Shown piece by piece: positions 5,019-25,722 of a DNA stretch of 38,038 bases. How positions within the stretch are numbered: the first letter of the stretch is position 1; each line of letters opens with the position of its first letter. The position numbers were made by a program, and so were the translations under genes. Below the pieces are notes generated by a model. It was not told the DNA's origin. It worked only from the letters and a program-made list of their open reading frames with translations, and searched no databases. Origin of the DNA: a virus. The DNA lies in IMG/VR virus record IMGVR_UViG_3300046167_000204, positions 1 to 38,038 of that record. The stretch is one strand, 5' to 3'.

Positions 5019-5291
5019 TTAAAATATAAAGTTAGTAAATACTAAAGTATTACCATCTTTTAAAGTTTCGTTATTAATATCAGTCCACTTAGTAGCCCAA
5101 TATTTGCCCGTGCTTTTGTCATAGTCTCCCTTTACTAATACATTTTTATTATTAGCTGTTGGTTTAAGCTTAAAGACTTCTTCGTTATCTAAGTCTTTTA
5201 AAGCCTTAACTATCATTACATCATGGCAAGGTTCGTTGTCTTCGTCACCTTTAAAGAAATAGTTTATTTTATCGTTTATTTTATAAGTCAT
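5019..5291 (-). CDS. hypothetical beta-rich protein (90 aa)
   Basis: Mostly predicted beta structure, with conserved-looking segments (DKINYFFKGDEDNEPCHDVM, VFKLKPTANNKNVLVKGDYD) and an aromatic C-terminus (NTLVFTNFIF). The ATG overlaps the last base of the upstream stop (TAATG). Function unknown. Confidence 0.6.
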   Translation of the reverse strand: MTYKINDKINYFFKGDEDNEPCHDVMIVKALKDLDNEEVFKLKPTANNKNVLVKGDYDKSTGKYWATKWTDINNETLKDGNTLVFTNFIF

Positions 5292-5569
5292 TATTTAGCC
5301 TCTTTGATTTCATTGATTCTATTTAATATAACTTTTGCATTACCTTTCTCACTAGCTAAGTACATCAAACGCTCTTCTATCTTGTAAAGTCTTTTAAAGT
5401 TAGAACAGTCACAGTTGCAAATTGCACTGGCTACCTTGTCCCAATCATTTTCTTTTAATCCTTCAGCTATTTTCAAAGCCCTTGTATTTGCTAACCCTCT
5501 ATCTATTAAAGACAATGCAAAATAATCTGTATCGTCATTTGTTATTGGTGTGTGTTTAAATGTTTTCAT
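5291..5569 (-). CDS. hypothetical protein (92 aa), first gene of the leftward unit
   Basis: I choose the ATG at 5569 (MKTFKHTPITNDD) rather than an in-frame ATG at 5641. The -10 box at 5652-5647 places the predicted transcription start at about 5640, and AAGGGAAT precedes 5569. The protein has helices and a CNCDC motif (AICNCDCSNFKRLYKIEER). It heads the leftward unit nearest the control region. No family recognised. Confidence 0.6.
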   Translation of the reverse strand: MKTFKHTPITNDDTDYFALSLIDRGLANTRALKIAEGLKENDWDKVASAICNCDCSNFKRLYKIEERLMYLASEKGNAKVILNRINEIKEAK

Positions 5570-5646
5570 AATAATATTCCCTTTTGTTATGCACTGTAAA
5601 GTGTACTTGACATCTTGATAAGTGCTTGTTTTCGTTTTCATGCCCT

Positions 5647-5652
5647 ATTATA
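5647..5652 (-). promoter_or_regulatory. -10 box TATAAT, leftward
   Basis: A perfect TATAAT on the minus strand (5652-5647), with a TG two bases upstream and a TTGCAT -35-like word at 5677-5672 (19-nt spacer, longer than ideal). It would drive the genes from 5569 leftward. Confidence 0.5.
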
Positions 5653-5671
5653 AGCACACCAGGAACACAGA

Positions 5672-5821
5672 ATGCAACACTTTAAAAAAGCCTATAAGAA
5701 TGCGGGTTGTAGAGGTGGTGATGTTGAAAAATTGTTCAATGGTATTTCACGAGAGCAAATTCAAGCTTCAGAGTTTTTTGAATTTGTCAAGTTTTGTTAC
5801 AGAATTTATTCAAGCTTTTAA
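5672..5821 (+). CDS. possible 49-aa protein in the control region
   Basis: ATG at 5672 is preceded by AGGA at good distance. The peptide (MQHFKKAYKNAGCRGGDVEK, ending FCYRIYSSF) has a balanced, protein-like composition. Its 3' end runs into the first iteron copy at 5811. There is no clear rightward promoter, and it lies over the leftward -10 box region, so it may be fortuitous. Confidence 0.35.
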   Translation: MQHFKKAYKNAGCRGGDVEKLFNGISREQIQASEFFEFVKFCYRIYSSF

Positions 5822-5904
5822 AGTCTATCAAGCTTGTAAAGTAAACTTTACACACTTAATTAACTTTCAACGGGGCATAAACTAGGCTTCAAAAGCTTGT
5901 AAAG

Positions 5905-5942
5905 TATGACACTTTTCAAGGGGTGGTATGACACTTTTCAAG
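5905..5942 (+). repeat. 16-bp direct repeats with 22-bp period
   Basis: TATGACACTTTTCAAG occurs at 5905-5920 and again at 5927-5942. The 22-bp period equals two helix turns, typical of iteron arrays that place bound proteins on one DNA face. Confidence 0.8.
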
Positions 5943-5971
5943 CTTGTGAAGTTTGTAAAGTTACACACAAG

Positions 5972-5980
5972 TTATCCACA
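5972..5980 (+). promoter_or_regulatory. DnaA box (perfect)
   Basis: TTATCCACA is identical to the strong E. coli DnaA box. It lies 10 bp beyond the left inverted-repeat arm. Confidence 0.6.
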
Positions 5981-6003
5981 TGTTATACATGGCACACTTT
6001 AAA

Positions 6004-6012
6004 AGTGGATAA
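6004..6012 (-). promoter_or_regulatory. DnaA box (one mismatch)
   Basis: The minus strand reads TTATCCACT, one base from consensus, in opposite orientation to the box at 5972-5980 and 23 bp away from it. Confidence 0.5.
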
Positions 6013-6284
6013 GCTGTTGATATCCTGTGTGAAGTTTTTAAAGTAGGGGGGAGCAGGATGCACAAGGGGGTGGGTGGGTATATATATAAATCTTATACAT
6101 TTCTACCCAATAGTGGTATTAACCAGTTGGGCTTTATAAAGCTTTAAAACTTTACAAACTTCATAAGCTTTTATATACTTTACAACACAGAATAACTCCT
6201 AATATTTTATAGTTGTTAGTGTTAGTTTGGGGGATAATAAAGAAGGAATAAGGTGGGTAGTCAGTATGACTAGGGTGGGGCTTT

Positions 6285-6307
6285 ATAGGTATTATCCTAT
6301 CAGGATA
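6285..6307 (-). promoter_or_regulatory. pair of mutually exclusive hairpins in the leftward leader
   Basis: ATAGG (6285-6289) can pair with CCTAT (6296-6300), or TATCCT (6293-6298) with AGGATA (6302-6307). The two share bases and exclude each other. They lie about 27-50 nt downstream of the predicted leftward start near 6334, where an attenuator or regulatory switch could act. A further hairpin, TAGTC-AGTAT-GACTA, follows at 6258-6272. Confidence 0.35.
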
Positions 6308-6340
6308 TATGTATTTAAAACGGGGGACATTTTCAATTAT

Positions 6341-6369
6341 ATTATACACATACTTTTCAATTTTGTCAA
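6341..6369 (-). promoter_or_regulatory. perfect sigma70-type promoter, leftward
   Basis: Minus strand: TTGACA (6369-6364), 17-nt spacer, TATAAT (6346-6341). It is back to back with the rightward promoter at 6407-6435. Transcription would run through the putative origin toward the leftward genes, or provide origin RNA. Confidence 0.75.
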
Positions 6370-6414
6370 GTGCTTTCTTCAATTACTTTAAATTACATCA
6401 AAAGACTTGACAAA
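6362..6414. repeat. inverted repeat over the two -35 boxes
   Basis: TTTGTCAAGT (6362-6371) and ACTTGACAAA (6405-6414) are perfect 10-bp inverted arms that contain the -35 boxes of the divergent promoters. A dimeric regulator bound here could control both directions. Confidence 0.6.
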
Positions 6415-6435
6415 TGTTAAAAGATACTATATAAT
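6407..6435 (+). promoter_or_regulatory. perfect sigma70-type promoter, rightward
   Basis: TTGACA (6407-6412), 17-nt spacer, TATAAT (6430-6435). Only six bases separate the -10 box from the TerS ATG, so the predicted transcript start coincides with the start codon. Confidence 0.8.
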
Positions 6436-6441
6436 AATACC

Positions 6442-6852
6442 ATGAGTTACTTGCCAGAGAAGAAAAGAAATCTAACTGAGAAACAAGAAGCATTCTTGAA
6501 TCACTTAGTAGAGACTGGTGGGGATTTCAAAAAGTCAGCCGAACTTGCAGGGTATTCAGGCAATCACTATCAAATATTAAAATCACTTAAAAACGAAGTA
6601 GTGGATTTAGCCAGTGACGTACTTGCAAGGGAAGCTCCTACTGCAGCATTCAAGCTTATAGAGGTTATGAAATCTGATAAGCCTGTTCCTCAAGCTAACA
6701 ACAAGCTACAAGCTGCACAGACGATACTAGATAGGGCTGGTGTTGTTAAGACCGATAAGGTTGATATTAATCATAATGTCAGTGGTGGTATCTTTATACT
6801 ACCAGAGAAACATACGATTGATATAGAAGCAGAAGATGTTAGCTATGAATAA
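6442..6852 (+). CDS. terS: terminase small subunit
   Basis: A 136-aa protein with an N-terminal helix-turn-helix of terminase small-subunit type (residues about 11-40: LTEKQEAFLNHLVETGG, then KKSAELAGYS), a helical middle (LIEVMKSDKP, NNKLQAAQTILDRAGV) and a short acidic tail. TerS recognises phage DNA and stimulates TerL ATPase during headful or site-specific packaging. It is the first rightward gene. No Shine-Dalgarno sequence precedes the ATG, and the promoter geometry predicts a leaderless mRNA. The next in-frame Met (in EVMKSDK) is too far inside to be the start. Confidence 0.8.
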   Translation: MSYLPEKKRNLTEKQEAFLNHLVETGGDFKKSAELAGYSGNHYQILKSLKNEVVDLASDVLAREAPTAAFKLIEVMKSDKPVPQANNKLQAAQTILDRAGVVKTDKVDINHNVSGGIFILPEKHTIDIEAEDVSYE

Positions 6853-8036: not shown

Positions 8037-8323
8037 AAGAAGGATATATAAAAAGAGCTACATCAACGATACCTTTCGGGTATCAGTTAGCTGAAGAAGC
8101 TAGTTCTTTTTTAAAACCTATTGAAGATGAGTTAGAAGCTTTGCAGATTGCAGAGAACATGGTAGTCAACGAAGAGATATCGTTACAGGCTGCATGTGAT
8201 TGGTTAGAATATAAAACGGACAGACGCATGTCTGCTCCGGGACTTAAAAAACACATAGATAAAAAGTATGGATTACGAAGCGAAAGATTGGGAATTGAAT
8301 CCTCATCTTTACTTGCAAGATAA
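8033..8323 (+). CDS. helix-turn-helix-like protein upstream of TerL (96 aa)
   Basis: The N-terminus is KRATSTIPFGYQLAEEAS. Residues about 38-80 (ALQIAENMVVNEEISLQAAC, DWLEYKTDRRMSAPGLKKHI) look like a helix-turn-helix of the kind that reads repeated DNA. It overlaps the terL start by 56 nt in another frame. Such a gene immediately before terL could be a second DNA-recognition subunit or a regulator of packaging. Confidence 0.55.
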   Translation: MKEGYIKRATSTIPFGYQLAEEASSFLKPIEDELEALQIAENMVVNEEISLQAACDWLEYKTDRRMSAPGLKKHIDKKYGLRSERLGIESSSLLAR

Positions 8324-9917
8324 CGAAGGTAATTTTGTAAAGAATAAAGATGGTACGCCTCGTAAGAAAGGTGGTAGACCTCCTAAAGATGCACAAGATG
8401 CAGCACGTAGGACTATTACTCGTAAACAAAAGAACATCAGAAAACTTGAAGAAAAGCTAAACAACGCTAAGAAATCATTCAAGAAACAAAAGACAACACT
8501 TGAAAAGCTGGACAATACTAAAGAAGGTATTGTTACAGAAAGTGATTTAGACACATTACCCAAAGCTGTAAAAGAAGTACTTGATAATCATCATGTATTC
8601 TTCCACGCTAACGAAGGTCCACAAACAGACTTCCTTGCTGCTGGTGAGAAAGATGTATTATATGGTGGAGCTGCTGGTGGTGGTAAATCATATGCCATGA
8701 TTGTTGACCCTTTAAGATATGCACACAGGTCTGCACACAGAGCCTTAATACTTAGAAGGTCTATGCCAGAACTTCGTGAGATGATTGATAAGTCTCGTGA
8801 ACTATATCCACAAGCATTTCCCGGTGCTAAGTTCAGAGAAGTAGAAAAGCTTTGGAACTTTCCAAGCGGTGCAAAGGTAGAGTTTGGATTCCTTGAGAGA
8901 GATGCAGACGTATATCGTTATCAAGGACAAGCATATAGCTGGATAGGGTTTGATGAGATAACCCATCTACCTACAGAGTTCAGTTGGAACTATCTTGCTT
9001 CACGTCTTAGAACAACAGACAAAGAAATAGAAACGTACCTACGATGTACTGCTAACCCCGGTGGTGTTGGTTCCCATTGGGTAAAGAAAAGATACATAGA
9101 ACCAAACGAATCAAACAAATCATTCAAAGGTCATGATGGACTAACACGAAAGTTTATTCCTGCTAAGTTAGCTGATAACCCTTATCTAGCAGAAGATGGT
9201 ATATACGAGCAGATGCTTAAGTCTTTACCACCTATACAACGTAGACAACTGTTAGAAGGTAACTGGGATGTAGCTGAAGGAGCTGCATTTGTTGAGTTTA
9301 GTCCTGAAAATCACATCATTACACCTTTTGTACTACCTGTACATTGGGAAAGAGTTAAAGCAGTTGACTACGGATACGCTGCAGAATCTTGTTGTTTATG
9401 GGGTATTATGGACATGAACGATAATACTTTAATAATATATAGAGAATTATACAGAAAAGGCTTGACAGGAGAAGAATTAGGTGCTATAATAACTGATATG
9501 GAGACAGAAGACCCATTCTCAGTGAACGGTGTCTTAGATACTGCAGCATGGGCAAGAACTGGTACAACCGGTCCAACTGTAGGAGAAAGTTTAGTTAAGG
9601 CTGGTCATAAGTTAAGACGAGCTGATAAGAATAGAATACAAGGTAAGATACAAATACATGAGTATTTAAAGGTTAGAGAGAACGGTAGACCTAAGTTACA
9701 GATATTTAATACATGTCCTAACTTAATAAGAGAGTTACAGTCTATACCGTTATCTAAAACTAACCCTGAAGATGTAGACACAAAAGCTTCAGACCACGCA
9801 TATGATGCATTACGTTATATGATAATGAGTAGACCAAGAATGGAAAACCCATTAGAACGTATTAGAGGTTTGAAACGTGATATGTACAGACCAGTAGACT
9901 CAACCTTTGGTTATTAA
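8268..9917 (+). CDS. terL: terminase large subunit
   Basis: A 549-aa packaging motor. The first ~110 residues are a charged, coiled-coil extension. The ATPase domain has Walker A GGAAGGGKS (133-141) and Walker B WIGFDE (225-230, catalytic E230). A coupling motif (CTANPGG) follows. The C-terminal RNase H-like nuclease domain shows acidic residues D367 (AVDYGY), D424 (VLDTAAW) and D513 (SDHAYDALRY). The protein translocates DNA into the procapsid through the portal and cuts it. A perfect promoter lies inside the gene at 9462-9490, directly before the in-frame codon M411. Confidence 0.95.
   Translation: MDYEAKDWELNPHLYLQDNEGNFVKNKDGTPRKKGGRPPKDAQDAARRTITRKQKNIRKLEEKLNNAKKSFKKQKTTLEKLDNTKEGIVTESDLDTLPKAVKEVLDNHHVFFHANEGPQTDFLAAGEKDVLYGGAAGGGKSYAMIVDPLRYAHRSAHRALILRRSMPELREMIDKSRELYPQAFPGAKFREVEKLWNFPSGAKVEFGFLERDADVYRYQGQAYSWIGFDEITHLPTEFSWNYLASRLRTTDKEIETYLRCTANPGGVGSHWVKKRYIEPNESNKSFKGHDGLTRKFIPAKLADNPYLAEDGIYEQMLKSLPPIQRRQLLEGNWDVAEGAAFVEFSPENHIITPFVLPVHWERVKAVDYGYAAESCCLWGIMDMNDNTLIIYRELYRKGLTGEELGAIITDMETEDPFSVNGVLDTAAWARTGTTGPTVGESLVKAGHKLRRADKNRIQGKIQIHEYLKVRENGRPKLQIFNTCPNLIRELQSIPLSKTNPEDVDTKASDHAYDALRYMIMSRPRMENPLERIRGLKRDMYRPVDSTFGY
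9462..9490 (+). promoter_or_regulatory. perfect sigma70-type promoter inside terL
   Basis: TTGACA (9462-9467), 17-nt spacer, TATAAT (9485-9490), in sense orientation. The predicted start near 9497-9498 coincides with an in-frame ATG of terL (9498-9500). It would also supply extra mRNA for the portal and downstream structural genes. Confidence 0.6.
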
Positions 9918-25476: not shown

Positions 25477-25719
25477 ATGGAACTAACACCTTATTTATTT
25501 TGGAATATATTTATAACTTTGGTGTTAGCTCCGGTGCTTTACGGCATACGACAAAACACAGAAGAGTCTAAAAGACTTGACATACTCTTAAACAAGACTC
25601 GTGAAGAGATAGCAAGAGAGTACGTAACAAAGAACGAATTAAAAGATGACATGGGTAGACTCATGGATAGGATAGATAAAATTGGAGAAAAGCTTGACAA
25701 ACTCTTCGAAGTCAAGTAA
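25477..25719 (+). CDS. small membrane-anchored coiled-coil protein (80 aa)
   Basis: An N-terminal transmembrane helix (LFWNIFITLVLAPVLYGI) is followed by a coiled coil (RLDILLNKTREEIAREYV, MGRLMDRIDKIGEKLDKLF). This layout is common for small phage membrane proteins near virion or lysis genes. A TTGACA -35 box for the next gene lies inside its last codons. Confidence 0.6.
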   Translation: MELTPYLFWNIFITLVLAPVLYGIRQNTEESKRLDILLNKTREEIAREYVTKNELKDDMGRLMDRIDKIGEKLDKLFEVK

Positions 25720-25722
25720 AAT
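25694..25722 (+). promoter_or_regulatory. strong promoter upstream of the internal virion gene cluster
   Basis: TTGACA (25694-25699), 17-nt spacer, TAAAAT (25717-25722; 11 of 12 consensus bases). CTTGAC and GTCAAG form an inverted repeat across the -35 region, similar to that at 6362-6414. The predicted start is about 10 nt before the next ATG. Confidence 0.6.

Follow-up and report, generated by a model that had tools for sequence, protein, structure and literature searches.

The two back-to-back promoters at positions 6341-6435 of the window (by which we mean the whole stretch of viral DNA that was analysed, 38,038 nt) are most probably the principal pair of divergent promoters in HTVC103P-like pelagiphages, made up of two independent maximal-consensus promoters, the rightward of which is predicted to produce a leaderless late mRNA for terS, the gene of the small terminase subunit. 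The rightward promoter, P_right, occupies positions 6407-6435 on the plus strand and the leftward promoter, P_left, positions 6341-6369 on the minus strand; each is an exact TTGACA-17-TATAAT match to the sigma70 consensus (12/12 + 12/12 for the pair), and both are kept in relatives. In P_right a 17-bp spacer separates the -35 element (6407-6412) from the -10 element (6430-6435), and the predicted transcription start (+1), which was placed seven bases past the -10 element, falls on position 6442. P_left has its -35 element at 6369-6364, likewise a 17-bp spacer, its -10 element at 6346-6341, directly preceded by TG, and its predicted +1 at 6334. A preliminary description had noted two exact-consensus promoters with 17-bp spacers and -35 boxes inside 10-bp inverted arms, and both observations were borne out. 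The left arm (TTTGTCAAGT, 6362-6371) contains the -35 box of P_left and the right arm (ACTTGACAAA, 6405-6414) that of P_right; the arms are perfect reverse complements, in which the TTGACA boxes account for six of the ten bases and leave four extra bases per arm. Both arms fall within a longer imperfect repeat, I1, and the stretch separating the two -35 boxes (6370-6406) measures 37 bp.

The same description had the inverted word recurring at a promoter at 25694. The word (GCTTGACAAA) is indeed present there, but it reads as coding sequence (K-L-D-K), and the weak promoter-like site (TTGACA-17-TAAAAT, 25694-25722, plus strand) matches the consensus in only 11/12 positions. We rejected it as a promoter because it lies within a gene ending at 25719, with the stop codon of that gene in its -10 element; the equivalent place in 15 relatives scores 7-11/12 and is perfect in none of them. 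A search of Rfam at gathering scores gave no match within the window.

Judged by its terminase proteins and gene layout, the window is an HTVC103P-like pelagiphage in which the pair sits between the leftward genes and terS; the assignment to the HTVC103P type is made by TerS, TerL and layout, no DNA polymerase or primase gene having been assigned in the 38-kb record. The nearest named relatives, by DNA as well as by TerS, are the Pelagibacter phages HTVC103P, HTVC104P and HTVC115P, to which the window TerS is 51-57% identical; the TerL identity is 65% to HTVC103P and 67% to HTVC115P. The terS gene (6442-6852, plus strand; phrog_2538, 5.4e-06) begins with an ATG that coincides with the predicted +1 of P_right, terL lies at 8268-9917 (plus strand; phrog_979, 8.2e-63), and the rightward gene order terS-terL-portal-capsid with a divergent left arm is that of HTVC103P-type phages. 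The genes for ssDNA-binding protein, primase and DNA polymerase lie on the divergent left arm in HTVC103P and HTVC115P. The leftward genes of the window are small and mostly without an assigned function, as is the first of them (5291-5641, minus strand, 116 aa). The window is a whole virus record of 38 kb, and the genomes of the named relatives measure 54 kb.

Four scans of viral contigs, together with the named phages, yielded 307 loci, 290 of them with a terS match and 267 usable, that is, with an ATG in frame and no fewer than 200 bases ahead of the terS match (23 of the 290 were dropped). The scans took the best 80 loci wherever matches exceeded that number, and the locus counts include some contigs twice, plus close relatives. 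A divergent pair scoring at least 21/24 was found in 225 of the 267 listed terS loci (score 24 in 131, 23 in 88, 22 in two and 21 in four) and in none of 690 shuffled controls. At identity thresholds of 90%, 80% and 70%, the TerS proteins of the pair-bearing loci form 56, 25 and 15 clusters, respectively, and while the hexamers of the pair hardly vary, the spacer letters do. Both promoters are 12/12 in HTVC115P; HTVC103P and HTVC104P have a right promoter of 11/12 and a left one of 12/12, HTVC033P carries promoters of 12/12 and 11/12, and the left spacer is 16 bp in HTVC103P, HTVC104P and HTVC115P (host HTCC7211). No pair was found in 37 of the 267 listed loci: four are from roseophages, and the other 33, which all came from one scan, are 43-46% identical to the HTVC115P query; a further five loci, HMO-2011 included, have a weak pair (<21/24). 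The terS gene of HMO-2011 and of the four roseophages is located within an operon. Since it is near-perfect over 25 divergent clusters, the pair can serve as an anchor when metagenomes are searched for the control region of such phages.

From the predicted starts, the terS mRNA would be a conserved leaderless late mRNA. In 215 of the 225 listed pair-bearing loci no more than 4 nt separate the terS ATG from the predicted +1, with leaders of 0 nt in 93, 1 nt in 98, 2 nt in 9, 3 nt in 9 and 4 nt in 6 loci, and the cultured phages HTVC103P, HTVC104P and HTVC115P have this layout too. The remaining ten leaders measure 5, 9, 13 (two loci), 17 (four loci), 20 and 150 nt; the longest is that of HTVC033P, and the nine loci with 5-20 nt belong to five clusters. 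Among 39 distinct close sequences, terS codons 2-15 show 234 synonymous versus 9 non-synonymous differences and codons 16-20 show 43 versus 28. Upstream in-frame ATG, GTG or TTG codons of terS were single in 13 and several in 5 of 18 loci. The cI mRNA made from PRM of phage lambda is leaderless, and according to the accessible part of PMC7566282 the alphaproteobacterium Zymomonas mobilis has 119 leaderless transcripts with a leader of ≤5 nt. The pelagiphage layout resembles these cases in that the start codon is at or within a few nucleotides of the transcript start; it differs from them in that the gene is terS, the first packaging and structural gene, that the start is a predicted one, and that the layout is conserved within a phage group and turns up again in a second TerS family.

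This second family (phrog_3802, 8.2e-38), one member of which is led by a perfect promoter in the SAR11-family genome set, has no detectable similarity to the window TerS. Among the 76 relatives of the phrog_3802-type terS with usable upstream DNA (L765-L844), 69 carry an 11-12/12 promoter with an ATG at +1 (62) or +2 (7), and seven do not. Its named relatives, among the matches listed, include Demerecviridae (T5-like) phages, all <60% identical; in three named T5-like relatives terS lies directly behind a same-strand gene (two phages) or behind a divergent gene (Ceto). For viral perfect promoters as a whole, a leaderless start is the minority mode: in the loci of the second scan 8 ORFs start at +1 or +2 versus 97 at +17 to +35, among the matches listed. 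Of 22 other perfect promoters in 20 stretches of relatives, two have an ATG at +1 to +5, and both open a short ORF (35 and 50 aa). Many other phage genes on viral contigs were seen to start exactly at the +1 of a perfect promoter, with ORFs of at least 60 aa at 52 of 84 sites (L465-L544, among the matches listed).

With its GC content of 35% and its many weak promoter-like sites, the window might be thought to produce such promoters by chance or through its AT-rich composition. The probability of this is negligible, as four perfect promoters (spacers of 16-18 bp) are present against a mean of 0.06 and a maximum of 1 in 300 Markov sequences of the same composition, and conservation rules it out, none of the 690 shuffles attaining the pair score. 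The TTGACA hexamer taken alone is not enriched in the window (30 sites against 28 expected). That terS is not leaderless in vivo, being translated mainly from longer transcripts and having its ATG near the -10 element through compaction, is rather unlikely. Such a view could draw on the predicted nature of the transcript starts, on the ten loci with leaders of 5-150 nt and on the minority status of leaderless starts among viral perfect promoters, but it is at odds with the short distance (0-4 nt), which 215 of the 225 loci keep and which recurs in the second, dissimilar TerS family. Moreover, among the matches listed, an ATG at +1 of a viral perfect promoter opens an ORF of at least 60 aa in 79 of 124 cases, and an ATG at +6 does so in 28 of 115. 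More bears on how the two promoters are controlled. The preliminary description took the inverted arms for one symmetric operator, through which one regulator would switch both promoters between early and late. We regard this as very improbable. The perfect 10-bp arms of the window speak in its favour, but the arms keep no fixed distance: in a pair search that allowed gaps of 5-80 bp, the -35 boxes were separated by 7-59 bp across the 25 clusters (37 bp in the window; 7-9, 13-23, 25-28, 32-33, 36-38, 40 or 57-59 bp in relatives), and because the gap runs over this range, a symmetric site of fixed geometry was not found and a single rigid symmetric operator is unsupported. Gaps near 16, 27, 37 and 58 bp had hinted at a fixed helical phase between the boxes, an idea that was dropped by eye when further relatives gave, among others, 7-9, 13-15 and 19-23 bp. 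The flanks of the -35 boxes can be read both ways. A C precedes the box in 19 and 18 of the 25 cluster representatives in the two arms, respectively, and AA follows it in 16 and 18, so that the pair exceeds in both respects 429 other viral perfect promoters, a comparison sample with a bias, since the scans demanded an ATG (C 72-76% versus 50%, where it is the commonest base; AA 64-72% versus 29%). There is a weak association between the two arms in their AA flanks (of the 25 representatives, 14 have AA in both arms, 5 in neither and 6 in one; Fisher one-sided 0.034, two-sided 0.058, uncorrected for relatedness). However, all four flank positions (C and AA in both arms) match in only 8 of the 25 representatives, and the C before the -35 box is likewise fixed at P_terL, a promoter inside terL for which no partner promoter was noted. 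Free variation of the arms outside the -35 boxes, which the preliminary description had named as evidence against a common operator, was seen in part only, the variation being moderate. The search for a conserved regulator that it had proposed, here covering two families, found the LexA DNA-binding domain (PF01726) in 2 of 21 relatives, HTVC103P and HTVC104P, and HTH_3 (PF01381) in none of the 21, some of the records being fragments.

What stands of the proposed natural early/late switch is a conserved divergent pair between the gene arms, a natural place for early/late control; the single shared operator does not stand. The inverted repeat would rather be the trace of two -35 elements sharing a common favoured context, C-TTGACA-AA, and a single fixed operator is unlikely. 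Two perfect promoters firing simultaneously would leave the early/late timing unexplained. Possible, though on the doubtful side, is a separate control of each promoter by a phage or host repressor or an RNA-polymerase-binding protein that reads C-TTGACA-AA or the GC-rich patch below P_left. It would fit the extra conservation of the flanks, the sharp GC-rich patch at +5 to +14 of the left transcript in 23 representatives, the LexA-like protein of HTVC103P and HTVC104P and a lytic programme that plausibly needs delayed late genes. It is weakened by the two families tested, which gave no group-wide regulator (one may yet lie among the many small early proteins without assignment), and by CtrA boxes, which are not enriched at the pair (TTAA-N7-TTAA, 5 seen versus 5.8 expected). 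TTAA-TTAA with a 6-bp spacer was found there 17 times versus 7.0 expected. By the lack of enrichment of CtrA boxes the pelagiphage pair differs from CtrA-controlled systems; in the leader, CtrA sites are only mildly above chance (37 versus 24).

We thus favour two independent promoters of maximal consensus, lying back to back between the gene arms, which the sigma70 RNA polymerase of the host would recognise, apparently without a shared repressor. P_left would drive the leftward arm, with its replication genes and small early genes, via a non-coding leader of ~700 nt, perhaps with a replication origin, and P_right would drive the packaging and structural genes with an mRNA starting at the AUG of terS, leading to leaderless translation of terS.

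The leader of the leftward transcript (5642-6334, minus strand, ~690 nt) is apparently non-coding, contains CTTGTAAAGT-like repeats and is a candidate replication origin. It carries the GC-rich patch TCCCCCG (6321-6327, minus strand) at +8 to +14 of the left transcript, and in the 23 cluster representatives the GC content at +5 to +14 amounts to 67-83%. The patch is sharp amid AT-rich DNA and could be a pause site, a protein site or a cohesive end. Further along, a block CTGGTTAATACC...GTAGAAATGTAT...TATATATA (6072-6126, minus strand) recurs in relatives; the strict pattern CTGGTTAAYA ... GTAGAAATGTAT ... TATATATA was found in 22 of 164 loci and in 0 of 3280 shuffles. Patch and block together suggest an origin or a regulatory leader. 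A perfect DnaA box (TTATCCACA, 5972-5980, plus strand) and a second one with one mismatch (6004-6012, minus strand) lie beside the repeats, and the minimum of the cumulative GC skew falls into the 5-6 kb bin of the window, which makes this region a candidate origin. Over 150 loci the excess of DnaA boxes with ≤1 mismatch is modest (0.59 versus 0.22 per locus by chance; 41 perfect boxes in total), and few distant representatives carry such boxes.

Divergent sigma70 promoter pairs are found in the control regions of other phages, such as PR/PRM of lambda and A2/A3 of phi29. The pelagiphage pair shares with these the back-to-back arrangement between gene arms and the predicted use of the host RNA polymerase, but it is distinguished by its perfect or near-perfect consensus and widely variable spacing, and the analysis, within the families tested, yielded neither an operator nor a shared regulator for it. 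Genetic work on SAR11 and its phages is difficult, and searchable papers say little about their transcription signals. As far as the accessible text of PMC10504331 goes, four sigma70 promoters and two Pribnow boxes have been predicted in Polarivirus skadi, which is similar in being a pelagiphage without its own RNA polymerase and with sigma70-like promoters, and differs in belonging to the HTVC010P-type group, with no divergent pair or leaderless genes described in that text. A published pelagiphage transcriptome concerns HTVC022P and HTVC027P (PMC12753301, accessible part). In the open-licence literature searched, including the accessible parts of PMC9038755, PMC8528129, PMC12753301, PMC10504331, PMC9004378, PMC2704228, PMC7029224, PMC8163748 and PMC9437464, we saw neither promoters nor leaderless genes described for HTVC103P-type phages.

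Perfect promoters are distributed very differently between these phages and their SAR11 hosts. Thirty phage records (1.22 Mb), which were picked for holding relatives of these genes, contain TTGACA-17-TATAAT 103 times (in 29 of the 30) and the reversed-pattern control once. In 99 SAR11-family genomes (~101 Mb, from rounded sizes) the promoter pattern occurs four times, in three genomes, and the control 78 times. A set of 12 genomes (two also among the 99) contains no perfect promoter versus 6 control matches, and with ≤1 mismatch 151 promoters versus 316 control matches. The reversed pattern is a rough control; the contrast between phages and hosts is large. Of the four sites in the host set, two are found together on a contig that also carries a phage TerS gene, a third falls within an ORF with a match to a phage exonuclease family, and the fourth (L431) has no assignment. 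Since perfect promoters are nearly absent from the SAR11 sample, their avoidance by the host and the use of maximal promoters by the phages would lend themselves to a joint study. A recurrent TTGACA...TATGAT in hosts was discarded as a host promoter, as it appears to be coding: the translation has an NPPY motif, presumably that of a PrmC-like protein; Rfam at gathering scores found nothing in three host loci.

A further perfect sigma70 promoter, P_terL, lies within the coding sequence of terL (9462-9490, plus strand; predicted +1 at 9497). Among 185 distinct sequences it scores 12/12 in 122, 11/12 in none and ≤10/12 in 63. In all 122 P_terL sequences Leu399 is encoded by TTG (0-25% at other conserved Leu) and Thr400 by ACA (8-77% elsewhere), and residue 398, where it is Gly, is always GGC (0-21% elsewhere); ATA at Ile407 and Ile408 (100 and 99%) is less telling, with 17-91% elsewhere. 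The TTG and GGC choices go beyond protein constraint, and the codon pattern points to a synonymous constraint on the promoter. Met411 places an ATG at the predicted +2 in 121 of the 122 sequences (L144 is without it) versus 7 of the 63 without the promoter, and opens an in-frame internal ORF (9498-9917, plus strand) with a putative product of TerL residues 411-549. When grouped at 80% identity, four of 14 clusters have P_terL, in all of their 153 loci, as against none of the 82 loci in the remaining ten, and because of this confinement the association of promoter and ATG may come from one origin; HTVC103P, HTVC104P and HTVC115P are without P_terL.

P_terL could raise portal and capsid expression, make a C-terminal TerL fragment, or both. 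The structure model of TerL is poor (mean pLDDT 40) and unusable to judge the fragment, and a comparison with solved structures gave no sequence match at E 0.001. Gene 17, the large terminase gene of phage T4, yields internal products, which are in frame like the putative TerL fragment; the proposal made here, based on sequence alone, differs in having an internal promoter followed by an ATG at +2. The accessible part of PMC3012670 holds no mention of internal products of T4 gene 17. A broader proposal, whose probability we put below even, is that marine phages of streamlined hosts use perfect promoters, which the host avoids, as a phage-only mark coupled to leaderless packaging mRNAs, and that P_terL would give an in-frame leaderless message for the C-terminal portion of the nuclease domain of the terminase (residues 411-549) as a separate packaging protein. 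Both the leaderless terS layout and the synonymous fixation at P_terL give rise to predictions that can be checked by 5'-end mapping. A perfect promoter inside an apparent same-strand coding sequence was also seen at L743-L749, where seven relatives carry two versions that are one base apart.
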